Positions 10,983-33,329 of a DNA stretch of 39,830 bases are shown piece by piece. A model generated the notes under the pieces. It worked only from the letters and a program-made list of their open reading frames with translations, had not been told where the DNA came from and made no database searches. Both the position numbers and the translations under genes were made by a program. The first letter of the stretch is position 1, and each line of letters opens with the position of its first letter. Source of the stretch: Gammaproteobacteria bacterium (GTDB lineage Bacteria > Pseudomonadota > Gammaproteobacteria > Xanthomonadales > SZUA-36); the NCBI GenBank assembly GCA_021772935.1, contig JAJFLA010000010.1, forward strand, positions 1 through 39,830, written 5' to 3'.

Positions 10983-11054
10983 GGGGTCAGACTCAAATGC
11001 ACTTGGGCTTGTGTAATTGATTGATTGCTGTTTGTTGCATTTGAATCTGACCCC
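10983..11054. repeat. Palindromic repeat, subfamily A, copy 1
   Basis: 72 bp bounded by GGGGTCAGACTCAAATGC and GCATTTGAATCTGACCCC, an 18-bp inverted repeat with one mismatch. The centre contains TTGATTGCTGTTTGTT, shared with copies at 11072 and 12389. It lies between the HerA gene and the aminotransferase, 17 bp from copy 2. It could fold as a long hairpin in RNA from either strand. Confidence 0.9.
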
Positions 11055-11071
11055 TGAACGGGGACGGAGCT

Positions 11072-11142
11072 GGGGTCAGACTCAAATGCGCTTGGCTTGG
11101 TGTGGTTTATTGACTGCTGTTTGTTGCATTTGAATCTGACCC
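11072..11142. repeat. Palindromic repeat, subfamily A, copy 2 (overlaps aminotransferase 3' end)
   Basis: 71 bp with the same arms and a centre like copy 1 (CTTGGCTTGGTGTGG... and TGACTGCTGTTTGTT). Its right arm enters the aminotransferase gene on the minus strand and encodes the last 11 residues, including GSDSN; the stop codon TAA (11107-11109) lies in the repeat centre. Confidence 0.9.
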
Positions 11143-12297
11143 GCCCTCTGGCGACTGCAGGCTGATCAGTCTTTGTGCGACTTCACGCAACGTATCCTTG
11201 TGCTTGGCGAAACAGAAACGAATGACGTGCTGATCCGGTGGCTGTTTGTAAAACACCGAGATCGGGATCGCAGCCACCTTGTATTCCCGCGTCAGCCGGG
11301 CGGCGAATTTTGTGTCAATTTCATCACTGATCGCGCTGTAATCAGCGAGTTGGAAGTAGGTTCCGCCAGAAGGGATCAGGCTGAACTGTGATGAGGCCAT
11401 CAGTGCACAGAACAGGTCCCGTTTTTCCTGATAAAAATTGCCCAACTCATAGTGGTGTTGTGGGCAATCATGCAGGAAATCCGCGAGGGCGTATTGCATC
11501 GGTGTATTGGTACTGAAGTTGATGAATTGGTGTATGCGCAGAAATTCTTCCATCATAGGCACCGGTGCAATGCAATAACCGACTCGCCAGCCTGTTGCAT
11601 GATAGGTTTTGCCGAAGGATGAAATTACAAAGGATCTCGCCGCCAGGTCCGGGTAACGCAACAAGCTCAGGTGTTGCTTGGTATCGAAAACAATGTGTTC
11701 ATACACCTCGTCGGAGAGCAAATGAATGTCCCGGCCTGCAATCACCTCGCGTAATTGTTGAATGTCATTGTCACTCCATACGGTTCCAGTCGGGTTATGG
11801 GGGTTGTTAAGTATAAGCAAACGGGTACGCTCGTTGATGCTATCACGCACCTGTTGCCAGTCTATGCTGAAGTCGGGGTAGTGCAGGGCAATATGTTTTG
11901 TCACGCCACCGTTGAGTGTGACACTGGGCTCGTAGGTATCGTAGGCCGGGTCAAACACAATGACCTCATCCCCGGCATGAACGACCGTAGTGATCGCACA
12001 GAATATCGCCTCGGTCGCACCGGGTGTAACGGCCACCTCGTTATCCGGGTTTATCTTACATCCATAAAGATCCAGCACCTTAGTGGCAATCTGTTCACGT
12101 AATTGAGGAACGCCAGCCAGTGGTGCATATTGGTTATGTCCGTGACCCATGTGATAAGCAACCCGTTCACGTAAAGCCGGTGGTCCATCGAAATCAGGAA
12201 ACCCCTGTGACAGGTTGATGGCGCCATGGTCCTGAGCCATCTGGGACATGACTGAGAATATGGTGGTGCCCTTACCGGGTAGTTTGTTACGTAGCAT
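11107..12297 (-). CDS. Pyridoxal-phosphate aminotransferase, methionine/YbdL type
   Basis: Class I/II aminotransferase, about 396 residues from the ATG at 12297; a TTG at 12336 would add 13 residues. It closely follows the YbdL pattern: GTTIFSVMSQMA, INLSQGFPDFDGP, NQYAPLAGVPQLRE, NNPHNPTGTVW, SDEVYEHIVFD, and the PLP lysine in SSFGKTYHATGWRVGY. The conserved Arg in HVIRFCFAK binds the substrate carboxylate. YbdL-like enzymes transaminate methionine and aromatic amino acids with 2-oxoacids. The normal protein should end near LREVAQRLISLQ; the extra tail SPEGGSDSNATNSSQ is largely translated from a palindromic repeat that supplies the stop. Its link to benzoyl-CoA metabolism is not evident. 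Confidence 0.9.
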   Translation of the reverse strand: MLRNKLPGKGTTIFSVMSQMAQDHGAINLSQGFPDFDGPPALRERVAYHMGHGHNQYAPLAGVPQLREQIATKVLDLYGCKINPDNEVAVTPGATEAIFCAITTVVHAGDEVIVFDPAYDTYEPSVTLNGGVTKHIALHYPDFSIDWQQVRDSINERTRLLILNNPHNPTGTVWSDNDIQQLREVIAGRDIHLLSDEVYEHIVFDTKQHLSLLRYPDLAARSFVISSFGKTYHATGWRVGYCIAPVPMMEEFLRIHQFINFSTNTPMQYALADFLHDCPQHHYELGNFYQEKRDLFCALMASSQFSLIPSGGTYFQLADYSAISDEIDTKFAARLTREYKVAAIPISVFYKQPPDQHVIRFCFAKHKDTLREVAQRLISLQSPEGGSDSNATNSSQ

Positions 12298-12350
12298 GTC
12301 TGTTTTACCGCTGAAATCAGATTCTAATGCGGTCAATTCTAGAGTGGGTT

Positions 12351-12368
12351 GGGGTCAGACTCAAATGC
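12351..12368. repeat. Isolated left arm of the palindromic repeat
   Basis: GGGGTCAGACTCAAATGC is present alone, with no matching right arm before the next full copy begins at 12389. This suggests a truncated or nested insertion next to copy 3. Confidence 0.8.
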
Positions 12369-12388
12369 GCGAGTGCACCAAAAAATTC

Positions 12389-12460
12389 GGGGTCAGACTC
12401 AAATGCACTTGGCTTGGTCTGGTTCATTGATTGCTGTTTGTTGCATTTGAATCTGGCCCC
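12389..12460. repeat. Palindromic repeat, subfamily A, copy 3
   Basis: 72 bp with arms GGGGTCAGACTCAAATGC and GCATTTGAATCTGGCCCC (one A to G change in the right arm) and the subfamily A centre (ACTTGGCTTGGTCTGG, TTGATTGCTGTTTGTT). It fills the gap between the aminotransferase start and the end of the hcrB-like gene, so transcripts from hcr into the aminotransferase would carry this hairpin. Confidence 0.9.
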
Positions 12461-12489
12461 TGAGCGGGTGTGTGACCCCCCGTTGTTGA

Positions 12490-13515
12490 TCAACCACGTG
12501 CCTGGTGGGCAATACGTTTCCGCAGTTCCCGGACATCATCGCCACGTAGTTCACGCAGAGCGTGATTCACAAAAGACGGCACCATTTTCTTCCTCCAGAT
12601 GGGTGTGAGGTCCGTGTTGCCACGTGGTTTGGCAAGTTTAGCCATAATATGCCCGGTTTCTTCGATGACGTCATCGTCCAGTTTTTTACCAACCAGAAAT
12701 TCTGTTGCCTCTGTTGATAACAAGGGCAGGGAAGAAACCGCACCCAGTACAATTCGTGCGTCCTCAATCGTTCCACCGCCATCGGTTTGTACGGCAGCAG
12801 CGACAGATAAAATGGGGAAATCAAAGGAGCCGCGTCTGCGCAGCTTCCAATAGGTACTGCGCCAGCCAACCAGGGGTTCAAGGATGACCTCAGTAAGCAC
12901 TTCGTTAGAGTGACGTTGCAGGTAGTTGGCACCATCATCCTGGTATAGGTCTTTCATTTCGACGATGCGCTCAGCATCGGCCGATACCAGACGCACCCTG
13001 GCACCGAGGGATATTAGCGCCGGTGCGGTATCGGTTGACGAGACAGCGCGGCAGGTTTTGCTGGTTGTGGCTACCCAGCAGGTATCACCATCCTTTTTAA
13101 GGCAGTTATTGATTGCTTTGCGCCAGTCTTCGTTCTGGTTGTAGTAACTGCAACGGGTGTCCAGACAAATGTTGCCACCGATGGTAGCGGTGTTCCTGAG
13201 CAACGGTGTTGCCACCACCCCAGCGGCCTGCCACAGACCTGTGTGGCTATCGCGGATCGAGTCGTTTTCCAACAGTGAGCCCAGTGTTAAGCCGGCACCC
13301 AATGTCAGACCTGAACTATTAGAAACATCATGTAATGATTTGATATTACTTAAAGAAATTAGTATTTCCGGTGTCTGTTGTCCACGCTTCATGTTGGCTA
13401 GCAAATCTGTCCCGCCCGCGACCAACATGGCACACGGTCCTTCTTCTTTAAGAATTTTTGCGGCCTCGGAAACCGATGTCGGTGCGATATAACGGAAAGG
13501 GGGTAGTCTCATCAT
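12490..13515 (-). CDS. hcrB: 4-Hydroxybenzoyl-CoA reductase beta (FAD) subunit
   Basis: FAD-binding subunit of a xanthine-dehydrogenase-family enzyme, 341 residues. FAD motifs are AGGTDLL (33-39) and TIGGNICL (111-118). Directly after comes an insert with Cys122, Cys138, Cys146 and Cys155 (spacing C-x15-C-x7-C-x8-C). This is the arrangement known for Thauera HcrB, where it binds the extra [4Fe-4S] cluster that lets electrons flow from ferredoxin to reduce the phenol ring substituent. Ordinary CO dehydrogenase or xanthine dehydrogenase FAD subunits lack it. The ATG overlaps the TGA of the preceding subunit gene, so the two are coupled. PaoB-type aldehyde oxidoreductase subunits also carry a [4Fe-4S] cluster, but the benzoyl-CoA context favours Hcr. 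Confidence 0.88.
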   Translation of the reverse strand: MMRLPPFRYIAPTSVSEAAKILKEEGPCAMLVAGGTDLLANMKRGQQTPEILISLSNIKSLHDVSNSSGLTLGAGLTLGSLLENDSIRDSHTGLWQAAGVVATPLLRNTATIGGNICLDTRCSYYNQNEDWRKAINNCLKKDGDTCWVATTSKTCRAVSSTDTAPALISLGARVRLVSADAERIVEMKDLYQDDGANYLQRHSNEVLTEVILEPLVGWRSTYWKLRRRGSFDFPILSVAAAVQTDGGGTIEDARIVLGAVSSLPLLSTEATEFLVGKKLDDDVIEETGHIMAKLAKPRGNTDLTPIWRKKMVPSFVNHALRELRGDDVRELRKRIAHQARG

Positions 13516-16010
13516 GTTTGTTCAGAGGCTCCTTTGACTTTATCCATAGTGTGCATCTTTGCAGCACGTTTACGCTCGGGTCTGTTGCTGGCTTTGCCAT
13601 CACCACCTTCCCAGGGTGGCAACACAAACATTGCTTGCGGCCACTCAATATTCGGGAATGCTTTTGGTCCCACGCGTGCATCATGCCCTGCAGCCTGCAT
13701 CTCAAGTGCTTTCAGTACCTTCACCGGTGTGATGGGTACCTCGTCTACACGCACACCAACGGCATCAAAAATTGCATTGGCGATGGCCGGCATAATGGGT
13801 AGTAATGGTCCCTGGCCGACCTCCTTGGCGCCGAAGGGGCCGTTAGGATCGGGGTTTTCGATGATATCTACGCATACTTCTGGCATATCGTGCATCGTCA
13901 ACGTTTTGTACTCGAGCATCGAGGGGTTGTCGTGTACCAATGCATCGGAAAGTTTTGGCGGCAGGCGACGTGAGCCGCTTTCTTCCATCAATGCCTCTCC
14001 GACTCCCATGTAGACACCGCCAATTACCTGTCCTTCTACCTGTACCGGGTTAAGTGACCGACCGATATCGTGTGCAATATAGATTCGAGTAACTTCGACA
14101 ACACCGCTTGCTTCGTCGACTTCAACTTCGGCCACTGCCGCGGTATAGGAGTAGGTGGGAGAAGGTCCCACACCACCGCCCGGAAAACGCGCGGCACTTT
14201 TGGGTGGCGCATAAGAACCAGTTGTGGCCATGGTTCCATGTTTTTCCTCGGCACAGATGACAGCTTGCTGGAAAGTCATGTTGCGATTGGGGTCCTCTAC
14301 ATCGAAAACCAGACGTTCAGCAAAGCCGATATGGTCAACCGCTATCTCCAGCTTTTCAGCCACGGCGCTGGCGATCAAATCACGTGCTCGTTCTGCAGCC
14401 TCGATGGCCGCATTACCCATCATCAGAGTGACACGACTGGAGTAGGAGCCGAGATCAACAGGTGTCAGGTCGGTATCGCCGGTGACACATTTGACATCAA
14501 TGGTCTCGATACCAAGGACTTCTGTGACCAAGCTGACGAGTACATCATCAGAGCCCTGGCCGACATCTGTTGCGCCACAATAAACGGTGACTGCACCACT
14601 GCGGTCGAGCTTGATCTGAACGCCGGAATGCGGCATTTTATTCCAGTAAATCGCGGTTCCAGCGCCACTCATATAGGCGCCGCAGGCCAGACCTACACCA
14701 CGGCCCCTGGGCAGTTTTTTATGTTTGTCCTTCCAGCCTGATCTGCTCACTACGCGGTCAATACATTCTGCTAATCCTATGGTGCCAACTTTGAGGAAAT
14801 TGCAGGTCAGTGAGTTGGCTGGTGCGATCATTCCCAGTCTTAGTTTAGCCGGGTCTATCTGCAGTTTTTCGGCGATCTTGTCCAGTTGGACCTCTTGGCC
14901 GAAACGTGGCTGCGGGGTGCCATGGCCCCGTTTGGGGCCACTGGGTGGTTTGTTGGTGAACACCCGGCAGGCTTCCCAGCTATAACGTGGTAATTGATAG
15001 GTTACCGGTTGTAACGCTGTAGTGTAGAAAGTACTTGCAATGCCATAGGAACCGTAGGCGCCGCCATCGAGTAAAGTTTGCAGGTGCATCCCTGTCAGCT
15101 TGCCGTCATTGTTTACACCGGTACGGAATTTCATCGTGACCTGGTGACGACCACGATGGCAATAAAACACTTCTTGCCGTGTCAGGCATATTTTTACCGG
15201 TCGGCCCAGCAGCATGGAGGCCTTGGTAACCACGATTTCATGGTTAAATGGGTCGGTTTTACCACCGAAGCCACCACCGTTAGGACAAGCAATCACACGA
15301 ATATGTGCAGCAGGCATCTCCAGCGCCTTGGCCAGAGCGCGATGCACGTAATGGGGACACTGGGTGCTCGACCACAGCGTAACCCTGCCATCAGGGTCGG
15401 TGGCCGCCACCGATGCATGCTGTTCCATCGCCATGTGGGTATTGCCTTCATACAAGAAAGTATCTTCAAAAACATGATCGGCTTGGGCCAGTGCTTCATC
15501 GACGTCACCGAAAGAATAAGCCAGTCGACGATGAATATTGTGTTCTTCAGCATAATTCTGTAACGGTGCCTCGGTGGCCTGAAGTGCTTCGGCTACTGTC
15601 GCAATGGTAGGCAGGGGCTGGTAGCTAACATCAATCAAGGATAGAGCTTCGCAGGCTGTTTGTTCATCGCATGCAATCACAGCGGCGACCGGGTCACCCA
15701 CAAAGCGAACTTTATCGCGGCACAAAGGGCGCTCATCCTGGCTGACAGGCAGAATCCCATACTCAACCGGGAAATCCTCACCGGTTAGCACCAGCTGTAC
15801 ACCGGGGTGAGCACTGGCGCGTGAAACATCAACTGTTTCGATTAGGGCGTGTGGCAATGACGAGCGTAATAGCTTGCAATGCAGCATACGCGGTAAGCTG
15901 ATGTCATCGGCAAAAAGCGTTTGACCGGTAACCTTTGACAAGGCGTCGATACGCACTCGGGGCTTACCGATGATCCTGAATGTATCGCTGGAATACTCGC
16001 GATGGCTCAC
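13512..16010 (-). CDS. hcrA: 4-Hydroxybenzoyl-CoA reductase alpha (molybdopterin) subunit
   Basis: Molybdenum-cofactor subunit of the same enzyme, 832 residues. Key features are the N-terminal RIDALSKVTGQTLFADDI domain, the molybdopterin contact GGGFGGK, GATDVGQGSDDV, VEGQVIGGVYMGVGEAL, and FGAKEVGQGP with the Glu expected at the active site. In Thauera the subunit dehydroxylates 4-hydroxybenzoyl-CoA to benzoyl-CoA. It begins with GTG overlapping the TGA of the [2Fe-2S] gene and ends overlapping the hcrB start. It is longer than the roughly 770-residue Thauera subunit because of a basic C-terminal tail of about 50-60 residues after VKVLKALEMQ. Exact substrate is inferred from the FAD subunit and the neighbourhood. 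Confidence 0.85.
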   Translation of the reverse strand: MSHREYSSDTFRIIGKPRVRIDALSKVTGQTLFADDISLPRMLHCKLLRSSLPHALIETVDVSRASAHPGVQLVLTGEDFPVEYGILPVSQDERPLCRDKVRFVGDPVAAVIACDEQTACEALSLIDVSYQPLPTIATVAEALQATEAPLQNYAEEHNIHRRLAYSFGDVDEALAQADHVFEDTFLYEGNTHMAMEQHASVAATDPDGRVTLWSSTQCPHYVHRALAKALEMPAAHIRVIACPNGGGFGGKTDPFNHEIVVTKASMLLGRPVKICLTRQEVFYCHRGRHQVTMKFRTGVNNDGKLTGMHLQTLLDGGAYGSYGIASTFYTTALQPVTYQLPRYSWEACRVFTNKPPSGPKRGHGTPQPRFGQEVQLDKIAEKLQIDPAKLRLGMIAPANSLTCNFLKVGTIGLAECIDRVVSRSGWKDKHKKLPRGRGVGLACGAYMSGAGTAIYWNKMPHSGVQIKLDRSGAVTVYCGATDVGQGSDDVLVSLVTEVLGIETIDVKCVTGDTDLTPVDLGSYSSRVTLMMGNAAIEAAERARDLIASAVAEKLEIAVDHIGFAERLVFDVEDPNRNMTFQQAVICAEEKHGTMATTGSYAPPKSAARFPGGGVGPSPTYSYTAAVAEVEVDEASGVVEVTRIYIAHDIGRSLNPVQVEGQVIGGVYMGVGEALMEESGSRRLPPKLSDALVHDNPSMLEYKTLTMHDMPEVCVDIIENPDPNGPFGAKEVGQGPLLPIMPAIANAIFDAVGVRVDEVPITPVKVLKALEMQAAGHDARVGPKAFPNIEWPQAMFVLPPWEGGDGKASNRPERKRAAKMHTMDKVKGASEQT

Positions 16011-16519
16011 GATTTAACCCCAGCGGCACTATTTTCTGTCTCTTCAATGGTGATGGCGGCTTCTTCGACCGATTCAATGACTTGTTGGTAACCGGTGCAG
16101 CGACACAGATTTCCCGATAATGCTTCGCGGATTTGTGCTCGTGTTGGTCTGGCTTCATTCTCAAGCAGCGCCTTGGCTGTCATTAGCATACCCGGTGTGC
16201 AGTAACCGCACTGCAAACCACCATGTTGTGCAAATGCCAATTGCAGTGGATGTAGCTGGTCTTTATCGGCCAGACCTTCAATGGTTTCGATTTGAGCGTC
16301 TTCGCACTCAAGTGCCAATAACAAACATGACAGGACTGGTTTACCGTCTTTAAGTACTGTGCAGGCACCACATTCGCCCAATTCACAGCCGTGTTTTGTG
16401 CCGGTCAGGGTCAGGTCTTCACGTAGTACTTCGAGCAGTGTTTTGGAAGATTCAACTAATACGTGCATATCTTCGTTGTTAACATTGAGATGCAGCTGGA
16501 CTTTTTTTGACCCACTCAT
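16007..16519 (-). CDS. hcrC: 4-Hydroxybenzoyl-CoA reductase gamma ([2Fe-2S]) subunit
   Basis: Small iron-sulfur subunit, 170 residues. The plant-type [2Fe-2S] cluster is bound by Cys45, 50, 53 and 65 (GCELGECGACTV). The second cluster is bound by Cys104, 107, 139 and 141 (CGYCTPGM and CRCTG). This two-cluster fold is standard for molybdenum hydroxylases and passes electrons between the FAD or [4Fe-4S] subunit and the Mo centre. It is the first gene of the hcrC-hcrA-hcrB operon on the minus strand, and its stop overlaps the GTG of hcrA. A perfect 17-bp hairpin of the repeat family lies just upstream. Confidence 0.9.
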   Translation of the reverse strand: MSGSKKVQLHLNVNNEDMHVLVESSKTLLEVLREDLTLTGTKHGCELGECGACTVLKDGKPVLSCLLLALECEDAQIETIEGLADKDQLHPLQLAFAQHGGLQCGYCTPGMLMTAKALLENEARPTRAQIREALSGNLCRCTGYQQVIESVEEAAITIEETENSAAGVKS

Positions 16520-16544
16520 GGCTGATGCTACCTATAGAATGTCA

Positions 16545-16582
16545 GGGGTCAGATTCAAATGTAGATACATTTGAATCTGACC
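16545..16582. repeat. Minimal hairpin form of the palindromic repeat
   Basis: The two repeat arms are joined almost directly: a perfect 17-bp stem, GGTCAGATTCAAATGTA and its complement, around a GA spacer. Unlike the 71-bp copies it has lost the whole centre. It sits upstream of hcrC and downstream of the thioesterase, so it could act as a hairpin in transcripts between them. Confidence 0.9.
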
Positions 16583-16638
16583 TTGTTCAGTGTGAGCCCG
16601 GTCATTTTGACTGGTGTGGGTGTTTATCCTACAGAGCA

Positions 16639-17049
16639 TTACAGGATGTTCTCCAATAGTGTGCGCATATCATCTGGCAGCGCCAGCACGCTGTTACTGT
16701 CCAAGTCCATGAAGACTTTTGTAATATGTGCAGAGAAACACAGCTCGGCGTCTTTTTTACGTCGAATTTCATATTTGAAAGTGACGGATGAGCGGCCAAT
16801 CTTCTCAATGGCCAGTTTTACCAATACGATATCGCCATAACGCAACGGTGCCATAAACTCCGAATTGATGGCCACGGTCGGAAAGCCCCGACGCAGGTCA
16901 TTAATCAAACTGGGGTAGGAGACACTGGAGGCATCGTCAAAGAAATCTTCAAATGCTTTGTGACACAAATGGAAGAACTGGGGATAATAAACGATGCCTG
17001 CACCGTCAACGTCATCAAAGCGTATTTTCAGGATACTTGTGAATGCCAT
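16639..17049 (-). CDS. 4-Hydroxybenzoyl-CoA thioesterase-family (YbgC/FcbC-like) protein
   Basis: Hotdog-fold thioesterase, 136 residues. The signature FDDVDGAGIVYYPQFF (about 11-26) carries the catalytic Asp of the YbgC/4-hydroxybenzoyl-CoA thioesterase group, followed by PLRYGDIVLVKL and SVTFKYEI. It probably hydrolyses an aromatic acyl-CoA, releasing CoA when intermediates pile up. It is flanked on both sides by palindromic repeats, standing alone between the hcr and bcr operons. It belongs to a different hotdog family from the PaaI-type gene at 5.2 kb. Confidence 0.82.
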   Translation of the reverse strand: MAFTSILKIRFDDVDGAGIVYYPQFFHLCHKAFEDFFDDASSVSYPSLINDLRRGFPTVAINSEFMAPLRYGDIVLVKLAIEKIGRSSVTFKYEIRRKKDAELCFSAHITKVFMDLDSNSVLALPDDMRTLLENIL

Positions 17050-17079
17050 CGTAGTTTTATCCGGGTCAAGTGTCAGGCA

Positions 17080-17150
17080 GGGGTCAGATTCAAATGCGTC
17101 ATACAGACTTCAGTAATCATACAGCGTCATGCGCATTTGAGTCTGACCCC
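17080..17150. repeat. Palindromic repeat, subfamily B, copy 1
   Basis: 71 bp with arms GGGGTCAGATTCAAATGC and GCATTTGAGTCTGACCCC. The centre holds TTCAGTAATCATACAGCGTC, related to the next copy at 17176 but unlike subfamily A. It lies upstream of the thioesterase gene. Confidence 0.9.
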
Positions 17151-17175
17151 GGTCTGCGGTGTTCGGTCCTTGTAA

Positions 17176-17246
17176 GGGGTTAGATTCGAATGCACCACAC
17201 AATTTTCAGTAATTATACGGCGTTAGGTGCATTTGAGTCTGACCCC
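17176..17246. repeat. Palindromic repeat, subfamily B, copy 2
   Basis: 71 bp, 25 bp from copy 1. Left arm GGGGTTAGATTCGAATGC carries two changes; right arm GCATTTGAGTCTGACCCC is intact. The centre TTCAGTAATTATACGGCGTTA matches copy 1 at most bases. It lies just after the GNAT gene stop and may stabilise or end the bcr operon transcript. Confidence 0.9.
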
Positions 17247-17265
17247 GGTCAGGAGTTGCCGGTTT

Positions 17266-18186
17266 TTAAGCCAACGCACAGGACAGGGCGAGACGCTGTG
17301 ACGGTTCAAAACCACAACTCTCAAGAAACCCCAACAGGCCAAAATTATTCCACTCAACTTCGGACCGGACTGACTCCACCTGCAAAGTAGCCAGGTTACC
17401 TTGCAATTGAGCGAGCAGGGCGTGTCCAACATGTTGCGATCGAAAAGCCTTTGTTACACCGAGCGTGTCAATCACAGCTTCTGAGGCCGTGCGACCGAAT
17501 TCACCAAAATCCACCCGTGCCATCATGAAACCAACAACCATACCATCAATTTCTGCGATCAGTGACAGTCTTACGCCGGATTCAAACAATACTTCCTGAA
17601 ATTTACGCTGAAAAAAATCATGTCGGGTATGTCCGGTGATTTTTGCGTCAATGCGCACCACATGGTCGATATCCTCAGGGGCTAGCGAACGCACCAATAT
17701 CTTGTCGTGTGATAGATCATCGAGTTCCGTACGGGTTGGGTCAGTATAATCGGGTGTGCTACGTTCGAGGATCAAGTTGTTAGCTAGTTTGAACCCGGTT
17801 GCAGAGAAAAAATCGAGCAGGCCAGGTTGGTCCCAACCGGCCTGGGTGTGTAGTTCTTTGCCGCCACGATCGCGAATCATGGTCATCAGTTGCGACATCA
17901 GTTCGTGTCCCACGCCATGGCCCTGGCTTTCAGGTTTGACCGACATCGCATCCAGTACCGCAATCAATTCGTCACTGCCAAATTCACCTTTCAGCATGTG
18001 ACAACAGACAAAACCAACCATTTCTCCGGCCTCGGTGGCCCCTATCGAAATAAATGCCAGTGGGTGATTTTGCTGCGCTTCGAAACGCTTGATAAAAAAA
18101 CCACGCCGTTGGTTACCGTTGGTAGCGGTGTCCAGCGCGACCACCGTGTCGAGGGATTCGGTTCCGATTGAGTCTATATCAGTCAT
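17266..18186 (-). CDS. Tandem-domain GNAT acetyltransferase
   Basis: 306 residues with two GNAT-like halves. The first has the acetyl-CoA motif VKPESQGHGVGHEL (about 78-91); the second has VTKAFRSQHVGHALL, a weaker Q-x-x-G-x-A version. It is the last gene of the bcr operon: its ATG overlaps the ferredoxin stop by 8 bases. A GNAT gene (badL) also occurs with the benzoyl-CoA genes of Rhodopseudomonas palustris, where it acetylates aminobenzoates. Whether this protein is equivalent is not known. It could instead modify a pathway enzyme. Confidence 0.8.
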   Translation of the reverse strand: MTDIDSIGTESLDTVVALDTATNGNQRRGFFIKRFEAQQNHPLAFISIGATEAGEMVGFVCCHMLKGEFGSDELIAVLDAMSVKPESQGHGVGHELMSQLMTMIRDRGGKELHTQAGWDQPGLLDFFSATGFKLANNLILERSTPDYTDPTRTELDDLSHDKILVRSLAPEDIDHVVRIDAKITGHTRHDFFQRKFQEVLFESGVRLSLIAEIDGMVVGFMMARVDFGEFGRTASEAVIDTLGVTKAFRSQHVGHALLAQLQGNLATLQVESVRSEVEWNNFGLLGFLESCGFEPSQRLALSCALA

Positions 18187-18424
18187 GTAACATCTCGTAT
18201 TTCATTTGCAATTCTTCTTTGCTTTCCTGGAAATCCGGGTTGGCTACGATGCAGTCGTCAACCGGACAGACCAATTCGCATTGTGGTTCTTCATGTTCAC
18301 CAACACATTCGGTACAGCGCAATGCATCAATCACATAAGGATCGCCTTCTTCAATGGCTTCGTTGGGGCATTCAAGAACACATGCATCACACACTTCGCA
18401 GTTGTCTTTAATTAGTAGTGCCAT
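18179..18424 (-). CDS. fdx: 2[4Fe-4S] ferredoxin, electron donor to benzoyl-CoA reductase
   Basis: Small soluble ferredoxin of 81 residues. Cluster ligands are Cys9, 12, 15 and 19 (CEVCDACVLECP) and Cys37, 40, 49 and 53. The second set has an 8-residue loop between its second and third cysteine, as in Chromatium-type low-potential ferredoxins and the Thauera benzoyl-CoA reductase ferredoxin. It has an AGGAG ribosome site. The place directly after bcrD, with the same orientation, supports a role in carrying electrons from KorAB to BcrAD. An extra cysteine is present at position 58. Confidence 0.92.
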   Translation of the reverse strand: MALLIKDNCEVCDACVLECPNEAIEEGDPYVIDALRCTECVGEHEEPQCELVCPVDDCIVANPDFQESKEELQMKYEMLHD

Positions 18425-18445
18425 TTTTGTTTCTCCTGTAGGACT

Positions 18446-19288: not shown

Positions 19289-19289
19289 C

Positions 19290-20603: not shown

Positions 20604-20628
20604 TTTTTGTTCCTCATTTTATTGGGCC

Positions 20629-21924: not shown

Positions 21925-21947
21925 ATTAAATCACCTTGTTAGTAGCA

Positions 21948-23878: not shown

Positions 23879-23894
23879 GTTTAGCCCTCCCGGC

Positions 23895-25028: not shown

Positions 25029-25165
25029 TTTTTACGTTTCCTGCGTTGTATTTAAGTGAACAAAGAAGGTTAGCTGGATGTACTATACTGCGCTTTATGA
25101 TAAAAAACTAGTGATTTATATCTTATAAGTGGTAATATAATGCATATTCAGGGAGAGGTGCTGAA
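25029..25165. promoter_or_regulatory. Divergent promoter region between oah-bcr and korAB-had operons
   Basis: This 137-bp AT-rich gap must hold the promoters of both operons. A TATACT at 25084-25089 could be a + strand -10, and the reverse strand has TATAGT in the same place, but neither has a clear -35 box, as in activator- or repressor-controlled promoters. One TGCA (in ATGCATAT, about 25141-25146) recalls the TGCA core reported for BzdR operators; a single occurrence is weak. No FNR-like TTGAT-N4-ATCAA site was found. GGGAGAGG is the korA ribosome site. Confidence 0.6.
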
Positions 25166-26890: not shown

Positions 26891-27726
26891 CGGCCCCTAG
26901 TGCATGTGCGCTGATACAACCCAAGGAATATAAATCCGGGGTGAAACCGGTCTGGTGTCCGGGTTGTGGTGATTTTGGTGTGCTTGGCTCTATTACCAAG
27001 GCGCTTTCCGGTTTGCAGATTCGGCCTGAAAATGCCGCCATCATTTCCGGCATCGGTTGTTCTTCGAGAATGCCGACCTACCTGAGTACCTATGGCTTCC
27101 ATGGTGTGCACGGTCGTGCCCTGGCGCTGGCCACCGGGCTCAAGGTGGCTCGCCCGGATCTGACCGTGATTGCAACCGGCGGCGATGGCGACGGATTCTC
27201 CATTGGTGGCAACCATTTTATGCATACTTGTCGACGCAATCCCGACATGACCTATATCGTGATGGATAACCAGGTCTATGGCATGACCAAAGGTCAGGCG
27301 TCGCCGACGACCGAACCGAATTGGGAAAAAGGCAAGCTCACCCCGGGTGGAACGGGTATCAATCCATTCCAGCCATTGGTGATTGCGCTGGCATCCGGCG
27401 CCAACTTTATCGCGCGCTGTTCCAGTGCCGATTCAAATGGTACCGCCAGAGTTATTATGGAAGCGATCAGGCATCCTGGTTTCTCCTTGGTGCAGATACT
27501 CAGCCCCTGTGTGACCTTTCGACCGGAACAACGTGAGTGGAAAAATATGCTGATACCTGCGCCTGTTGTTGCAACCTCTGACCCGGCCCAGGCGGCACGT
27601 CGCTTGTTGACGGATGAAGGACTTTTTACCGGGATACTTTATGTGGGCAATCGGCCCGCTTACCAGCCAACACTTGAAGCGAGTATCGATGATGTTGCCA
27701 AGCTAGATGAGGAGTTCCAGTTATGA
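26887..27726 (+). CDS. korB: 2-Oxoglutarate:ferredoxin oxidoreductase, beta (TPP) subunit
   Basis: 279 residues from the ATG at 26887 that overlaps the korA TGA. It has the cysteine motif VWCPGCGDFGVL, another Cys in GIGCSSRMP, and the thiamine pyrophosphate site GDGDGFSIGGNHFMHTCRRN. These are standard for beta subunits of 2-oxoacid:ferredoxin oxidoreductases. With korA it makes the reduced ferredoxin for BcrCBAD. An alternative start 15 bases upstream is less likely. Its stop overlaps the next gene (ATGA), so korA, korB and the ferritin-like gene are coupled. Confidence 0.9.
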   Translation: MTAPSACALIQPKEYKSGVKPVWCPGCGDFGVLGSITKALSGLQIRPENAAIISGIGCSSRMPTYLSTYGFHGVHGRALALATGLKVARPDLTVIATGGDGDGFSIGGNHFMHTCRRNPDMTYIVMDNQVYGMTKGQASPTTEPNWEKGKLTPGGTGINPFQPLVIALASGANFIARCSSADSNGTARVIMEAIRHPGFSLVQILSPCVTFRPEQREWKNMLIPAPVVATSDPAQAARRLLTDEGLFTGILYVGNRPAYQPTLEASIDDVAKLDEEFQL

Positions 27727-28259
27727 GTGACAGTATTAACAATCCAGCGCGTACTATTGGCAGCACCGAGGAGTTGCTGGCCTATTCGCTTGCACTTGAA
27801 ACAGAAGCAGTTGAGCGTTTTAACGATCTTGCAGACCAGATGGAAACGCACCACAACTATGAGGTTGCTGATTTATTCCGAAAACTTGCAAAAATTGAGG
27901 GTTTACATATAGAAAATGTCAACCAGGCTGCCACGGGTAAACAATTACCCAGTCTGTTGGCCTGGGAATTTGAGTGGGATGATGGTGAGTCTCCGGAAGG
28001 CGGAGCGATGCAGGACGCACATTACCTGATGCAGCCCTGGCATGCGATTGAACTGGCGATGCAGGGAGAAAAACGTGCGGTCGCTTTTTTTCGTCATGTG
28101 GCCGAAACCACGAGTGACGACAAGGTGCTGAAAATGGCACTGGAGCTCGTCGAAGAGGAGGAAGAACACGTGGCGTTGTTGCAGCAATGGCAAGAACGCT
28201 TCCCCAAACCGGACGACGGCTGGGATGAAGATCTCGATCCACCCGCCATGTTGGAGTAA
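27723..28259 (+). CDS. Ferritin-like (rubrerythrin-type) diiron protein
   Basis: 178 residues forming a four-helix bundle with likely diiron ligands: Glu26 or 28 (LETEAVERF), Glu59 and His62 (IEGLH), Glu110 (AIELA), and Glu in EEEEEH with His149. There is no C-terminal rubredoxin Cys4 site, so it is an erythrin-like short form. It sits between korB and had with a 4-base overlap and a 5-base gap, so it is part of the catabolic operon. Removing peroxide or oxygen to protect the oxygen-sensitive reductase and ferredoxin is a reasonable role, inferred only. The acidic C-terminus DDGWDEDLD is notable. Confidence 0.8.
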
Positions 28260-28264
28260 AAACA

Positions 28265-29332
28265 ATGAGTTATAAGATTAAGCGTTGGGAGATGAGATCG
28301 GCTGGTGAGCCGTTGACAGAAACCGAGATCAGCCTGGATAGCCCAGGTGAGGGTCAGGTCCTGGTAGAGGTAGCGGGTTGTGGTGTTTGCCATACCGACC
28401 TGGGCTTTTATTATGATGGCGTACGTACCCGGCATCCATTGCCGTTGACCCTGGGTCATGAAATCTCCGGCCGTGTTATTGCCACCGGTGTGGGTGCCGA
28501 GTCGTGGCAGGACAAAGCAGTGATCATTCCCGCGGTCATGCCTTGTGGTGAGTGCGATGTGTGTCAGCGCGGACTGGGCAATATCTGTAGTAAGCAACTG
28601 ATGCCGGGCAACGACATGCACGGTGGTTTCGCCAGTCACATCGAGGTTCCTGCACACGGACTTTGTCCGGTTGATGAGCAGCGTTTGTCAGCGGTTGGTC
28701 TTAACCTGGCCGATGTTTCGGTGCTGGCAGACGCCGTCACGACACCTTACCAGTCTGCGGCGCAACTTGATATTCAGCCCGGTGATCTGGCCATCGTGGT
28801 CGGTGTCGGCGGTGTCGGCGGTTACGCAGTACAGATTGCCAGTGCAATGGGTGCAAAAGTTGTGGCGATTGATGTGGTGCAGGATAAACTTGAAAGTCTT
28901 GTTGATTATGGTGCTGACCTGATCCTGAACACACGGGATATCAGCGGTCGGGAATTAAAAAAAGCGGTGAAAACGTTTGCCAAAGAAAACGGCTTACGCC
29001 AGACAGAATGGAAGATACTTGAATGCTCTGGTACCGGAGCCGGGCAAAAAACTGCCTATGGTCTGCTGACATTCGGTGCCAGATTGGCAGTTGTCGGTTT
29101 TACCATGGACAAAGTAGAAGTTCGATTATCCAATTTGATGGCATTTCATGCCCAGGCAGTCGGAAACTGGGGCTGTCTGCCCGAGTTTTACCCACCAGCG
29201 CTGGAGTTGGTGTTGGATGGAAAAATTTCTATGAAACCATTTATCCGCCAGTTCCCTCTGGCGCAAATCAACGACGTGTTCACGGCATCGCACGCGCATG
29301 AGATAGATCAGCGGCCGGTGTTGGTGCCCTAA
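28265..29332 (+). CDS. had: 6-Hydroxycyclohex-1-ene-1-carbonyl-CoA dehydrogenase
   Basis: Zinc-type medium-chain dehydrogenase, 355 residues (Thauera Had is about 368). Catalytic zinc residues are in [11 protein letters not shown] and LGHEISG; the structural-zinc cysteines are in [15 protein letters not shown]. The Rossmann motif is [12 protein letters not shown]. It oxidises the Dch product with NAD to 6-oxocyclohex-1-ene-1-carbonyl-CoA, the substrate of Oah. It has GGAG before the ATG and follows the ferritin-like gene by 5 bp. A degenerate palindromic repeat begins 4 bp after its stop. Confidence 0.92.
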
Positions 29333-29335
29333 CAA

Positions 29336-29405
29336 GGATCGGATTCAAATGCGGCACACAGTTATCAAGTATCATACGGCGCCAAGCGAATTGGAGTCCG
29401 ACCCC
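29336..29405. repeat. Palindromic repeat, subfamily B, degenerate copy 3
   Basis: 70 bp with worn arms (GGATCGGATTCAAATGC and GCGAATTGGAGTCCGACCCC) and a recognisable subfamily B centre (CACACAGTTATCAAGTATCATACGGCG). It fills nearly the whole 85-bp gap between had and the regulator gene, leaving little room for a separate promoter. Confidence 0.8.
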
Positions 29406-29417
29406 GATTAGGTCAAC

Positions 29418-30341
29418 ATGACAAAAACTGAAACAGACACCGTTGAAGAATTGCTGCAAGAGCTTGGCTGCAAAGTCAGGGCACTTCGCGCAGGTCGTGG
29501 CATGACACGTAAAATGCTTGCGGCAGATTCAGCTGTTTCAGAGCGTTACCTTGCACAATTGGAGCAGGGTAAGGGCAATATATCGATTGGTTTATTGCAA
29601 CGCGTAGCGAAAGCCTTGCGCGCTGATCTTGGTGAGTTGCTGCGTAGTGGTAATGAGGTTACCGCGGAGCAGGTTCTGATCAATGAACTGATTCAGCGTC
29701 TGGATAGCGACGATCAGCATCGTGCCCTGCAATTGTTATATCAAAATTTCTCCGCCCGCCAGGATTGCAGTCGAATCGCATTGGTTGGCATGCGGGGTGC
29801 AGGTAAAACCAGCCTCGGCAGCCGCCTGGCACAACACCTTGATGTACCCTTTGTGCAACTGGTGACGGAAATCGAGACACTGGGTGGTATGCCGGTTGCA
29901 GAAATTCTGTCCCTGTCGGGGCAGGATGGCTATCGTCGTCTGGAAGAGAAAGCCTTATTCGATGTGTTGGCACGCCTGGACGAATGCATTATTGAAACCG
30001 GCGGCAGTATCGTTTCCGAAACTGGCTTGTTCAACGTGCTGCTGACCACCTGTCACGTCGTCTGGATCAAGACCTCACCTGAAGAACATATGCAAAGGGT
30101 CATCGATCAAGGTGATCTGAGACCAATGGACAGCAACGTTGATGCGATGGCTGATCTGCGTCGCATCCTTGATGCCCGCGAACCTTTTTATGCCCAGTCA
30201 CATGCCACTATAGACACCTCGGGCAGCAGGTTGGAAGAGAGTTATAGGCAACTGGTCGCCAGTGTTCAGGGGAATGATCAGGGGTCAGATTCAAATACGG
30301 CCAACAGCAACCAGCAACCAGACAGTGCCAAACGCATTTGA
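29418..30341 (+). CDS. BzdR/BoxR-type transcriptional regulator (XRE HTH + shikimate-kinase-like domain)
   Basis: 307 residues with an XRE-type helix-turn-helix (about 18-75, MTRKMLAADSAVSERYLAQLEQGKGN). A linker leads to a shikimate-kinase-like domain with P-loop GMRGAGKTS (124-132). This two-domain build is specific to BzdR and BoxR, which repress benzoate genes and respond to benzoyl-CoA bound by the kinase-like domain. Linked to an anaerobic bcr set, it is more likely BzdR-like. It has an AGG ribosome site 5 bases before the ATG. The last 19 residues (from GSDSN at 289) and the stop codon come from a palindromic repeat. The natural end was probably near VASVQG. Confidence 0.88.
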   Translation: MTKTETDTVEELLQELGCKVRALRAGRGMTRKMLAADSAVSERYLAQLEQGKGNISIGLLQRVAKALRADLGELLRSGNEVTAEQVLINELIQRLDSDDQHRALQLLYQNFSARQDCSRIALVGMRGAGKTSLGSRLAQHLDVPFVQLVTEIETLGGMPVAEILSLSGQDGYRRLEEKALFDVLARLDECIIETGGSIVSETGLFNVLLTTCHVVWIKTSPEEHMQRVIDQGDLRPMDSNVDAMADLRRILDAREPFYAQSHATIDTSGSRLEESYRQLVASVQGNDQGSDSNTANSNQQPDSAKRI

Positions 30342-30351
30342 GTCTGACCCC
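30281..30351. repeat. Palindromic repeat, subfamily B-like, copy 4 (overlaps regulator 3' end)
   Basis: 71 bp with arms GGGGTCAGATTCAAATAC and GCATTTGAGTCTGACCCC. Its left arm and centre are read in frame by the regulator gene, and the TGA stop (30339-30341) is part of the right arm (CATTTGAGTC). The centre (GCCAACAGCAACCAGCAACC) differs from the other B copies. Confidence 0.9.
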
Positions 30352-30448
30352 GGTCCGGTGCGGAGACTCAGAGCACATGTTTTCTGGACTTACCGTAGTT
30401 GCGCAGGGTATCTTTTTTTGCTCGGGCCACTAAAGCTGGAAGTAACCT

Positions 30449-31891
30449 ATGAAAATGATTTGGAATAAGCTAATAAGAAAGCACTTGAGTGCTTTGATAC
30501 TGGCTACCACAATGATAAGCCTGTTCGCTACACCACTGGCTGCAACCACTATAGGCATTGACGACCTGTCTACTGACGAGCAGTTATCCGAAGACATTCT
30601 GCGTGAATTGGTGGGGTTTGAAAGCACTGTCGAGCGTCCGGGAGAGATCAGCAAGGCGCTGCAAGCCATGGCGAAGCGTTTGTCTGAGGCCGGTTTTCCA
30701 GACGAAGATATCCAACTGGTCGAACCAGCTGACGACCGTTACGGAATGGTGGTTCGTTACCGTGGAATCGCCACAAAACGACCACTACTGCTGCTCGCGC
30801 ACATTGACGTTGTTACCGCCACACCGGACGCTTGGGCTTTCCCGCCCTTCAGTCTTGGGAAAAAGGATAACTACTATGTCGGCCGGGGCACGGAAGACAA
30901 CAAGGCTGGTGTTACTCAAATCATTAGTAATTTTATCCGCCTGAGACAAGAGGGCTGGGTACCCAACCGTGATTTAGTTGCGGCTATTTCCGGTGATGAA
31001 GAAACGACGGGTATCGTGGCGAAGTGGTTCGCCAATGAAGGGCGGAATCTGATTGATGCTGAATACGCCATCAATTCGGATGCTGGCGGCGGTGAATATG
31101 ACGAAGCAGGTCAGCGTAAGGCTTTCTGGATACAGACCAGTGAGAAGCTCTACCAGACCTATGAATTGACTGCCACCAATGAGGGCGGCCACAGCTCGCT
31201 TCCGCGACCGGACAATGCGATTCAGAATCTGGCTGTTGCCATTACGCGATTAGCAAAGCACCAATTTCCGGTGATCCTGAACGACAGTACCAGAATGCAG
31301 TTGCGGCGTTCAGCTTCATTGTATCCCGACAAGATTGCGCGCGATATGTTGACGCTGGCAGAGGATGAAAACGACCATGCCGCCGCGCAACGATTGTCGA
31401 GTGCCGAGCCTGCTTTTAACGCAATGCTGCACACCACTTGCACCCCCACCATGCTCAGTGGTGGTCATGCAGAGAACGCGTTGCCACGTGACGCCAGCGT
31501 AACAATTAACTGTCGAATTTTACCTGGCACGAAAGCGATTGAAATTGAACAGGTTATTTCCCGTTTGAGCAATGATCTGGATATTGGCATTAATATCATT
31601 TATCAGGGATTGGCCAGCGGACCTTCTGATTTACCGGCTGCTTTTCTTGAGGGCATCGAATCGCTGGTTGAGGAACGCTGGGGAGATGTTGCCGTGATTC
31701 CAAAAATGTCCACGGGTGCTACTGATGGTTTGTTTTACCGTAATGCCGGAATACCTGTTTATGGTGTTGGTACGCTCTTTAGTAAGCCCAGTGATTGGCG
31801 TGCCCATGGGCTTGATGAAAGAATTGGCATTCGTGACTTCCACGAATCCGTGGCGTTCTGGTACCAATTACTCAAAACCATGGCGCATTGA
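30449..31891 (+). CDS. Exported M20-family zinc peptidase
   Basis: 480 residues with an N-terminal signal peptide (SALILATTMISLFATPLAA), so periplasmic. M20 metal and catalytic motifs: LLAHIDVVTA (His and Asp), GRGTEDNKAG (bridging Asp), SGDEETTG (catalytic Glu plus ligand), NSDAGG, and a late His in RAHGLDERIGI. The middle dimerisation domain carries NEGGHSSLPRPDNAI. The family cleaves dipeptides, N-acyl amino acids or carbamoyl compounds. With the exported amidohydrolase 66 bp downstream in the same direction, it looks like part of a peptide-scavenging unit. Confidence 0.9.
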   Translation: MKMIWNKLIRKHLSALILATTMISLFATPLAATTIGIDDLSTDEQLSEDILRELVGFESTVERPGEISKALQAMAKRLSEAGFPDEDIQLVEPADDRYGMVVRYRGIATKRPLLLLAHIDVVTATPDAWAFPPFSLGKKDNYYVGRGTEDNKAGVTQIISNFIRLRQEGWVPNRDLVAAISGDEETTGIVAKWFANEGRNLIDAEYAINSDAGGGEYDEAGQRKAFWIQTSEKLYQTYELTATNEGGHSSLPRPDNAIQNLAVAITRLAKHQFPVILNDSTRMQLRRSASLYPDKIARDMLTLAEDENDHAAAQRLSSAEPAFNAMLHTTCTPTMLSGGHAENALPRDASVTINCRILPGTKAIEIEQVISRLSNDLDIGINIIYQGLASGPSDLPAAFLEGIESLVEERWGDVAVIPKMSTGATDGLFYRNAGIPVYGVGTLFSKPSDWRAHGLDERIGIRDFHESVAFWYQLLKTMAH

Positions 31892-31957
31892 ATATGGTCA
31901 GGGCTTGGCAGATTGGCTTATCATGTTCCGTCTAACGCAAGCTAGCAGGTAATTTAC

Positions 31958-33250
31958 ATGCCAATATTCAATCAATTATCTTTAAAAGTATCAGCAGTTC
32001 TCGTGGTTTCTTTGTTGTCAGTTGGCACATCCGGTGCGGATGATCTGTTATACGTGCGAGCAGGTACATTGATTGATGTTCAAACGGACCAGCTACGCCG
32101 TGACCAGGTCATCACCATTCGAGGCGAACGTATTGAGCGCGTTGATGATGCCAAGGACATCAATATTGAACCCAATGCGAGGCTGATTGACCTCGGAGAC
32201 GCATATGTCATGCCGGGCTTGATTGAGTTGCACACCCATCTGACCGGTGATCATCGATATCATGGTTATGAAGGGTTGCAGTTTTCGGTGCCAAGGGAAA
32301 CCCTGTTTGGCGTCACCAATGCGCTGAAAACTTTGAATGCTGGATTCACGACGGTACGAAATGTAGGGGCAGCGGGCTATTCGGATGTTGCTTTACGTGA
32401 CGCGATCAACGCCGGTGAGATCGATGGACCGCGCTTGCGTGTATCGGGACCGGCTCTCGGTATGACTGGCGGTCATTGTGACAATAACCTGTTACCGGTC
32501 GAGTATGGTGTTCGTGCAGGTGGTATAGCAGACGGACCCTGGGCAATTCGTGCCAAAGTGCGTGAAATCGTTAAGTACGGAGCCGATTTGATCAAGTTTT
32601 GTGCCACCGGTGGCGTGTTATCAAAAGGTGACAGCGTTGGTGGTCAGCAATACACCTTTGAAGAAATGAAAGCACTTGTTGATGAAGCACACATGCATGA
32701 ACGTAAAGTTGCGGCGCATGCTCATGGTGCTGAGGGCATCAAAACTGCAATCAGGGCAGGTGTCGATTCCATCGAACATGCCAGTCTGATCGATGACGAG
32801 GGCATCAAGCTTGCCCGAAAAAACGGAACTTACCTGGTGATGGATATTTACAACGATACTTTTATTCTGGAGCACGGCGCATCAGTAGGTATGCTGCCGG
32901 AGTCGTTGGAAAAAGAACGCATGATTGGTCAACTGCAACGAGACAATCATAAAAAGGCATTTGAGGCGGGTGTCAAAATGGCCTTTGGCAGCGATGGTGC
33001 AGTTTACCCGCACGGTGATAATGGCAAGCAGTTTTTTTATATGGTCAAATATGGCATGACACCAATGCAGGCTCTGCAGGCGGCGACCATTCATGCCGCA
33101 GACTTGCTCGGTTGGTCCAATGATGTAGGTACAATAACCCCTGGTTTTTATGCCGATATTGTTGCGGTTAAACGGAATCCACTGGACGATATTACTGTGA
33201 TGGAGAACGTCAGTTTTGTCATGAAAGGGGGCAAGGTCTACAAGCAATAA
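31958..33250 (+). CDS. Exported amidohydrolase (imidazolonepropionase/prolidase-like)
   Basis: 430 residues with a signal peptide (VSAVLVVSLLSVGTSGAD). Binuclear-metal amidohydrolase features: MPGLIELHTHL (first two His), the carbamylated Lys in LIKFCATGGV, AAHAHG, DSIEHAS and FGSDGAVYPHGDNG (catalytic Asp). This subfamily includes secreted Xaa-Pro and Xaa-Arg dipeptidases and other cyclic-amide hydrolases of marine bacteria; the exact substrate is unknown. The gene is followed 8 bp later by a palindromic repeat. Confidence 0.88.
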   Translation: MPIFNQLSLKVSAVLVVSLLSVGTSGADDLLYVRAGTLIDVQTDQLRRDQVITIRGERIERVDDAKDINIEPNARLIDLGDAYVMPGLIELHTHLTGDHRYHGYEGLQFSVPRETLFGVTNALKTLNAGFTTVRNVGAAGYSDVALRDAINAGEIDGPRLRVSGPALGMTGGHCDNNLLPVEYGVRAGGIADGPWAIRAKVREIVKYGADLIKFCATGGVLSKGDSVGGQQYTFEEMKALVDEAHMHERKVAAHAHGAEGIKTAIRAGVDSIEHASLIDDEGIKLARKNGTYLVMDIYNDTFILEHGASVGMLPESLEKERMIGQLQRDNHKKAFEAGVKMAFGSDGAVYPHGDNGKQFFYMVKYGMTPMQALQAATIHAADLLGWSNDVGTITPGFYADIVAVKRNPLDDITVMENVSFVMKGGKVYKQ

Positions 33251-33258
33251 ATCAGTCA

Positions 33259-33329
33259 GGGGTCAGATTCAAATGCGGCATGCAGTAGCTGGAAATCACA
33301 CAGCATCAAACGCATTTGAGTCCGACCCC
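33259..33329. repeat. Palindromic repeat, subfamily B-like, copy 5
   Basis: 71 bp with arms GGGGTCAGATTCAAATGC and GCATTTGAGTCCGACCCC. It lies between the convergent amidohydrolase and TPR-sulfotransferase genes, 3 bp from the stop codon of the latter, and could serve both as a terminator-like hairpin. This is the last copy seen in the window. Confidence 0.9.

Follow-up and report, generated by a model that had tools for sequence, protein, structure and literature searches.

Introduction

Subclass 2.1 is the largest subclass of class 2 (REP-type) transposases in the survey of Quentin et al. (2018, PMC6006769), with 493 members in its Table 1 and an HUH consensus of NHVH or NH[YF]H; going by the survey's text on this subclass, which corresponds to RAYT group 1 (group names as given there), no REP-like sequences were found alongside. 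These enzymes have no agreed job. In TIRtrons, a RAYT-related Y1 transposase gene (TIRYT) is flanked by GGGGWSAS inverted repeats, and the description of these elements includes species in which the repeats form moderately abundant families, as dimers or clusters (Di Nocera et al., 2013, PMC3733652). REPINs, as outlined by Bertels and Rainey (2011, PMC3116915), are extragenic, RAYT-linked units of two inverted conserved ends with a short spacer, forming one hairpin. The IS200/IS605 transposases belong to the same superfamily (Pfam Y1_Tnp), and the chemistry considered below follows the survey's outline of it (PMC6006769).

The present window is the whole analysed stretch of 39,830 nucleotides, contig JAJFLA010000010.1 (C56) of assembly GCA_021772935.1 (G000), from a Gammaproteobacteria bacterium (Xanthomonadales, SZUA-36). 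The palindromic repeats dispersed in it are read here, with a probability of roughly 0.8 judged from sequence comparison, as REPIN-like non-autonomous mobile elements of the TIRtron kind, most likely moved by a Y1 transposase encoded on contig C35. The kind itself is known; what is new is a TIRtron-type population linked to a subclass that the survey, in its passages on subclass 2.1, reports without REPs (PMC6006769). Such a linked, polar population makes the question of the substrate of these enzymes directly testable.

Results and Discussion

Repeat Elements in the Window

The arm was matched 19 times in the window (up to three mismatches) against 0.06 matches expected, and none of 100 shuffles reached 19; the dispersed palindromic family described in an earlier note on this DNA is thus real. 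The arms resolve into eight full doublets, one lone arm and one mini-hairpin. The note had given a length of about 71 bp and a start at 29336 for one element; the full doublets are present, with lengths of 71–72 bp and that start at 29335.

Three polar doublets of 72 bp lie on the minus strand. The element at 10983–11054 (84.7 bits) has its T-arm at the high-coordinate end and is followed head-to-tail, after a gap of 17 nt, by the element at 11072–11143, which overlaps the 3′ end of an aminotransferase ORF (11107–12336; tail GGSDSNATNSSQ up to the stop). The third is located at 12389–12460, and a lone C-arm on the same strand (12351–12368) is found 20 nt past its C-arm end. Lone arms made up 21 of the 167 arms with at most one mismatch in the stretches scanned. 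In the mini-hairpin (16545–16584, no strand assigned), a 2-nt loop separates two T-type arms, which form a perfect inverted repeat of 17 bp; the earlier note had listed both this hairpin and the lone arm, and both were found again.

On the plus strand, full polar doublets of 71 bp are present at 17080–17150 (86.3 bits) and 17176–17246, arranged head-to-tail with a gap of 25 nt, and a more decayed full doublet of 71 bp occupies a short intergenic spacer at 29335–29405. The full doublet at 30281–30351 overlaps the 3′ end of ORF 29418–30341, a protein with HTH and shikimate-kinase domains, and encodes its tail (GSDSNTANSNQQPDSAKRI up to the stop); the copy of this protein in the congener G006 has the C-terminal end SALSWPAI. 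Such repeats are seen here to rewrite a host protein's C-terminus. The last full doublet (33259–33329) lies between two convergent ORFs. A search of the window with Rfam at the gathering threshold gave no match to a known RNA family, and a search for plasmid relatives of positions 1–25000 gave none.

Copy Number, Polarity and Folding of the Doublets

At least 78 full doublets, this being the number of copies listed with decayed ones included, are distributed over 21 contigs of the genome, so that the family is not confined to the window. Among the doublets listed, 60 of 78 are 71–72 bp long, and a T-type arm is joined to a C-type arm in 77. An earlier scan that demanded T in the first arm only found G in the partner arm in 50 of 50 cases. 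Since the model that assigns orientation was derived from T-first copies (41 of the 50 G000 copies of that scan and 13 copies of relatives), "T first" holds by construction; what the data show is a difference between the two arms. The arm starts with GGGGTCAG, and each 71–72 bp unit has the left end GGGGTCAGATTCAAATGC and the right end GCATTTGAGTCTGACCCC. All 16 close pairs among the doublets listed are head-to-tail, and in 11 of the 16 at least 30 centre bases match in an ungapped comparison; the near-identity of centres within such tandems suggests that some of the copies were made by host duplication.

The earlier note had proposed exchangeable centres in two groups, A and B. This model was rejected as an effect of orientation. 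With the T-arm placed first in both, the centres scored 4.97 (shuffled mean −2.88, sd 0.67; 0 of 1000 reached this value) as against −9.6 in the orientation printed in the window. The two groups represent a single family with one centre, read on opposite strands.

Hairpin folding of three elements, that at 17080 included, gave z values of −5.0 to −9.5 on both strands, and in each case none of 200 shuffles was as stable. The arms of the 17080 element, the one element examined in this way, gave no fold singly on either strand. GTAG within 6 nt of the foot on either strand was found in 0 of the 78 doublets listed, and GTGG within the same distance in one.

Genomic Siting and Empty Sites

With ORFs from a crude caller, 76 of the 78 listed doublets lie outside ORF bodies, and for 55 of these 76 the nearest gene end is a 3′ end. 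The T-arm faces the nearest 3′ end in 31 cases and the C-arm in 24; such near equality does not suggest a strand-specific role in RNA. No preference with respect to transcription was observed at the 43 codirectional sites (24 same, 19 opposite). The flanking dinucleotides of the doublets listed are CA on the left in 42 of 78, GG on the right in 38 of 78, and the two occur together in 21 of 78. The counts suggest a CA/GG context at insertion sites, which may belong to the element or to the target; the comparison of the 17080 site with congeners fits CA and GG being part of the empty site.

Empty sites, which the earlier note had named as a check, were seen in congeners. The site of the 29335–29405 element is empty in G003, G005 and G006, the intergenic gap being 14 nt in the own genome minus the element versus 18 nt in G006. 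The pair at 17080–17246 is absent from both G005 and G006, where the spacing between blocks is 3 and 21 bp versus 211 and 229 bp here. An element corresponding to 33259–33329 was sought in G003 and G007, and one corresponding to 10983–11143 in G002, G004 and G008; none was found. G006, which harbors its own population, has no arm at any of six orthologous intervals (29335, 17080 and C37:83272, 85222, 86216 and 93538); its second match to the 17080 neighbourhood (C130) has 897 bp between the blocks, also without an arm. For six C37 elements aligned to congeners, the interval size fits absence for several and base-level junctions are unreliable; the C37:93538 interval is as long as or longer than the own one in some relatives (418 bp in G007, 355 bp in G004). 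At about 74% identity, the congeners allow junctions to be placed to within a few bases at best. Seven of the eight same-genus relatives used besides G006 have 0 or 1 arm, so that absence in these is to be expected.

A Y1 Transposase Gene Flanked by the Elements

The genome has three Y1_Tnp matches (E ≤ 0.001), two on C35 and one on C27. With none on C56, the statement that the window holds no transposase stands as regards Y1 genes. A RAYT gene at positions 71435–72079 of C35 (215 aa) has whole doublets with GGGGTCAG arms on both sides, as the earlier note's search for a Y1 gene flanked by the same arms had envisaged. Its protein matches Pfam Y1_Tnp and NCBIfam REP_Tyr_transpos (85.3 bits, cut-off 80), and the nearest solved chain is that of E. 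coli TnpAREP (4er8, E 7e-6). The C-terminal HTH domain that goes with subclass 2.1, sought with Pfam at E values up to 1 in this protein and four relatives, gave no match. The assembly contains one copy of the gene (the next most similar Y1 protein, that of C27, is 41% identical). This differs from IS200/IS605, with multiple near-identical gene copies, and the gene is not the repeated unit. The C27 gene is flanked by one outward pair, GGGGTCAGAGTCAAGTGC, and the genes of several relatives likewise by an outward pair of their own arm.

The C35 protein shares YIELNP and an NH-hydrophobic-H motif with subclass 2.1 as the survey describes it (PMC6006769), its NHIH being a small departure from the consensus; among the 19 tree rows other than C35 and its G006 counterpart, 18 have NHVH and one has NHFH (three of 24 loci, L041, L049 and L054, yielded no protein under the motif rule and are absent from the tree). 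By the same source, the median length in the subclass is 238 aa versus 215 aa here, and GGGG-type flanking repeats occur in both.

The abundance of the elements was compared with the enzyme across 61 genomes. The three highest arm counts were 172 (G000), 54 (G006) and 19 (G026). The best RAYT identity to C35 is 100% in G000, 77% in G006 and at most 51% in the other rows listed; its only close relative sits in the only other of the 61 genomes with a large population. The C35 gene and its 5′ element are alignable between these two genomes, and the arm abundant in both is the arm beside the C35-type gene. G026 has its 19 arms, yet its best RAYT is 42% identical (genome 85% complete); G014 has one exact family member and a best RAYT of 47%. 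The C35 enzyme is called cognate on the grounds of linkage and co-distribution.

Comparison With Known Systems and Alternative Explanations

As in the TIRtrons of Di Nocera et al., a Y1 RAYT-like gene with GGGGWSAS-type flanks (here GGGGTCAG) is accompanied by repeats unrelated to GTAG REPs. Set against the text description of TIRtrons (PMC3733652), the family here is distinguished by a polar doublet of 71–72 bp with a weakly conserved centre and at least 78 copies, by close head-to-tail pairs and by whole doublets flanking the gene. With REPINs as outlined in PMC3116915 it has in common the inverted doublet with a short spacer forming one hairpin, the extragenic siting and a single-copy RAYT in trans, and a 71-bp spacing also occurs among REPINs (GI doublets); it differs in having no GTAG-type REP at its ends, a constant difference between the ends and another RAYT subclass. 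The earlier suggestion of REP/BIME-like elements with a RAYT elsewhere therefore holds for the RAYT on C35 and fails for canonical REP/BIME, and a better fit is the branch of RAYT-linked repeats that has GGGGWSAS terminal repeats (TIRtron/TIRYT). Extragenic inverted doublets and a RAYT flanked by them would also be found with classical GTAG-type elements of the canonical REP-linked RAYT subclass, an explanation that we consider highly improbable: this candidate was rejected on the lack of GTAG near the foot in the 78 doublets listed (GTGG in one), the failure of the 17080 arms to fold singly and clusters made of head-to-tail doublets, and the NHIH and YIELNP motifs are those that the survey's account gives for subclass 2.1.

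Two further explanations were weighed. The elements could be internal-deletion MITEs of an autonomous TIRtron, mobilised by TIRYTs of the GGGGTCAG type in general, the C27 enzyme among them, in line with the outward pairs around the C27 gene and the genes of relatives, and with the first nine bases common to the C27 and family arms. This is unlikely, as the C27 arm has other bases at inner positions and was found only around C27 among the 21 sequences scanned, and the abundant arm of G000 and G006 is that of the C35-type gene. Slightly less probable still are host-domesticated 3′ UTR hairpins (terminators or mRNA stability elements) that spread by ordinary duplication and recombination and lie beside the RAYT by chance. 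The extragenic siting near gene 3′ ends, the shared centres in 11 of 16 close pairs and the strong hairpins on either strand of the three elements folded would suit such a role; against it, unit ends and length are fixed at unrelated sites, empty sites occur in congeners, abundance tracks one RAYT lineage, and both arms face 3′ ends about equally.

For mobile elements moved by the C35 enzyme, the preferred reading, the two ends of a unit would fold into one long hairpin once the DNA is single-stranded. The HUH/tyrosine (Y1) transposase would recognise the ends of the hairpin while the DNA is in this state, as at replication forks, and by cleavage excise or copy the unit. Rejoining would take place at a new intergenic position, with no evident duplication of the target. 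Tandem duplication, or directional reinsertion beside an existing copy, may give rise to head-to-tail neighbours.

Distribution of Doublets and Enzymes Across the Order

The large linked population described here stands in contrast to the REP-free subclass 2.1 of the survey's account (PMC6006769), and many further enzyme/arm sets within one order add to the testability of the substrate question. Doublets with GGGGTCAG ends occur in 106 of 398 genomes of the order (nested arms being counted twice at some places) and are associated with TIRYT-type genes, by matching done by eye and with kinship ignored; no TIRYT (E 1e-25) was found in 5 of 32 genomes with at least five doublets and in 14 of 48 with at least three. 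The odds appear about even that subclass 2.1/group 1 (TIRYT) enzymes commonly sustain polar GGGGTCAG-ended doublets whose inner arm is lineage-specific and enzyme-matched, the difference between the ends marking the processed strand. A RAYT search by back-translation in a genome-contig collection confirmed nothing; a second scan, based on a DNA pattern, yielded 19 stretches belonging to three named MAGs.

The arm of the own gene was compared with the repeats for nine of twelve genomes, the other three being G048, G049 and G058. No such repeat was found beside the gene in G011 and G014, and the comparison gave no clear match in G019 and G051. Some places match the own-gene arm in G021, G028 and G032; in G030 it is identical in two of six, the other four differing at 2 of 18 bases. 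In G040, the arm of the own gene is present at eight of the nine places listed, out of 34.

Structure and Polarity of the Element

The palindromic arm repeats that the earlier note had reported for the window were recovered as 19 matches (≤3 mismatches) against 0.06 expected; the window contains eight full doublets, i.e., hairpin units with a T-arm at one end and a C-arm at the other, together with one lone C-arm and one mini-hairpin. An arm search of the whole source genome (G000, GCA_021772935.1; ≤2 mismatches) gave 95 forward and 100 reverse matches and none for the reversed control pattern. A covariance model yielded 143 strand-matches in this genome and 61 in G006 (the only congener that has an element population of its own), and the matches listed for the source genome represent at least 78 distinct places. 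The consensus, built from 54 aligned copies (41 of the source genome and 13 of three relatives), consists of GGGGTCAGATTCAAATGC, a centre of 35–36 nt with a weak block near TCAATAATCACAC, and GCATTTGAGTCTGACCCC. Among the matches listed, 60 of the 78 source-genome copies are 71–72 bp long.

Position 10 and its partner were T/G in 75 of the 78 copies, C/A in two and G/G in one, so that 77 elements carry one T-type and one C-type arm. A T.G wobble on one strand and an A.C mismatch on the other are therefore possible, and both were visible in six folds; the arms of the element at 17080 do not fold when taken singly. The all-pairs centre score (2956 pairs) was higher for the same polarity (1.3) than for opposite polarity (-6.3), and the two centre groups, A and B, distinguished in the earlier note merge once orientation is turned. 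In stretches picked around elements, 167 arms were found (≤1 mismatch), 146 inside full elements and 21 lone (nine T-type and 12 C-type).

All 16 close pairs (<150 nt) among the 78 elements are arranged head-to-tail (binomial p 3e-5 under independent orientation), with a gap of 17–29 nt in 13 of them. Ungapped comparison of their centres showed at least 30 matching bases in 11 pairs and fewer in five. We infer that local duplication explains the near-identical pairs, and the remaining ones could have arisen by directional insertion.

Genomic Siting and Empty Sites

As judged with a crude ORF caller, 76 of the 78 elements lie outside ORF bodies, and for 55 of these the nearest gene end is a 3′ end, faced by the T-arm in 31 cases and the C-arm in 24. 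Elements enter two ORFs of the window, one at 29418-30341 with helix-turn-helix and shikimate-kinase domains (tail ...GSDSNTANSNQQPDSAKRI, then stop) and an aminotransferase ORF at 11107-12336 (tail ...GGSDSNATNSSQ, then stop). The T-arm reads G-S-D-S-N in one frame; the GSDSN C-terminal tails of both ORFs are coded by the mobile element, which also supplies their stop codons. The comparison with a relative covered ORF 29418-30341, whose G006 counterpart ends in ...SALSWPAI.

Congeners (about 74% identity to the source genome in aligned blocks) showed element-free orthologous intervals at several loci, as expected for the mobile element proposed earlier. At 29335-29405, the gene-to-gene distance without the element is 14 nt in the source genome versus 18 nt in G006, and the site is also element-free in G003 and G005. 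For the pair at 17080-17246, the inter-block distance is 211 bp versus 3 bp in G005, and 229 bp versus 21 bp in G006. No element was found at 33259-33329 in G003 and G007, or at 10983-11143 in G002, G004 and G008. Absence from same-genus genomes other than G006 is expected because they hold zero or one arm genome-wide; in G006, the arm was absent from all six intervals examined (29335, 17080, C37:83272, 85222, 86216 and 93538).

The Associated Transposase

Three Y1_Tnp matches were present in the source genome. One, a Y1/RAYT ORF of 215 aa at C35:71435-72079, bears out the idea of a transposase encoded elsewhere and flanked by the same arms: two doublets lie on each side, all four in one orientation, and lone C-arms are also present. 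The C35 protein scored above the NCBIfam REP_Tyr_transpos cut-off, and E. coli TnpAREP (4er8) was the sole solved chain matching it (E up to 1). The C27 protein fell below the cut-off (63.9 of 80); its gene sits in an ordinary compact TIRtron with one outward GGGGTCAGAGTCAAGTGC pair (C27:2987-3854, on a 6.6-kb contig).

Any arm (≤1 mismatch) was found in nine of 61 genomes, with 172 in the source genome, 54 in G006, 19 in G026 and one or two in six others. RAYT identity to the C35 protein is 100% in the source genome, 77% in G006 and at most 51% in the others among the matches listed. The C35 gene and its 5′ element align with G006 at 72% over 701 bp. The G006 contig ends inside the gene, and thus only one flank is comparable; on that side, blastn found nothing further in common outside elements. 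In a tree of 21 proteins, the C35 and G006 proteins form a long, fully supported branch. The G006 tyrosine motif is YIEFNP; the other 19 proteins have NHVH or NHFH, and YIELNP in all except one (YIEMNP).

RAYT-like genes with GGGGWSAS terminal repeats were described by Di Nocera (2013); some of these repeats belong to families of moderate abundance that include dimers and clusters (PMC3733652). Most such transposases were assigned to subclass 2.1, found in 14.9% of the strains surveyed, and for this subclass the survey reports that neither automatic nor manual search turned up REP-like sequences (Quentin, 2018; PMC6006769). REPINs were defined by Bertels and Rainey (2011), including the 71-bp doublet spacing and excision reads (PMC3116915), and RAYTs have been described as vertically inherited and present in single copy, with host machinery probably responsible for amplifying REPINs locally (PMC8049555). 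In its workings this family resembles a REPIN, but on the tested features it belongs with the TIRtrons rather than with canonical REP/BIME elements.

Doublets Across the Order

A scan of 398 genomes from the order found the generic GGGGTCAG doublet pattern in 106 (reversed control, two), with the highest counts in the source genome (57) and G040 (34). Genes related to that of C27 (E 1e-25) occur in 146 of the 398: in 27/32 genomes with at least five doublets versus 119/366 others (Fisher p 1e-8), and in 34/48 with at least three versus 112/350 (p 3e-7), p values that are uncorrected for kinship. Doublet arms clearly matched the repeat next to the gene of the same genome in G040 (equal at eight of nine doublets listed) and G030 (two of six identical, four near), matched partially in G021, G028 and G032, and did not match in G019 and G051.

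Exact elements were found in the MAGs SZUA-36 (G006), C1.bin.42 (G026) and Dive100_bin2.37 (G014). The last, of another genus, has one exact member (L062, 6646-6716) and no close RAYT (best 47%); the member may reflect transfer or be a relict. In SZUA-36 (loci L063-L079, QIKV01), many C-arms are GGGGTCGGACTCAAATG, a second recurrent end-to-end difference, and the centres appear more uniform, which suggests a younger expansion. Y1 genes of other families in G054 (L037) and G057 (L049) have, by position, a GGGGTCAG doublet on each side, as at C35, with a different inner arm; the L049 doublets are short. An unrelated second palindromic repeat with AACCCGCATATCGTGCCAATAC arms lies at C37:86280-86570 of the source genome (L174, 5580-5870), where 5694-5857 matches congener DNA at many places with 73–87% identity, chiefly in G009 and G003.
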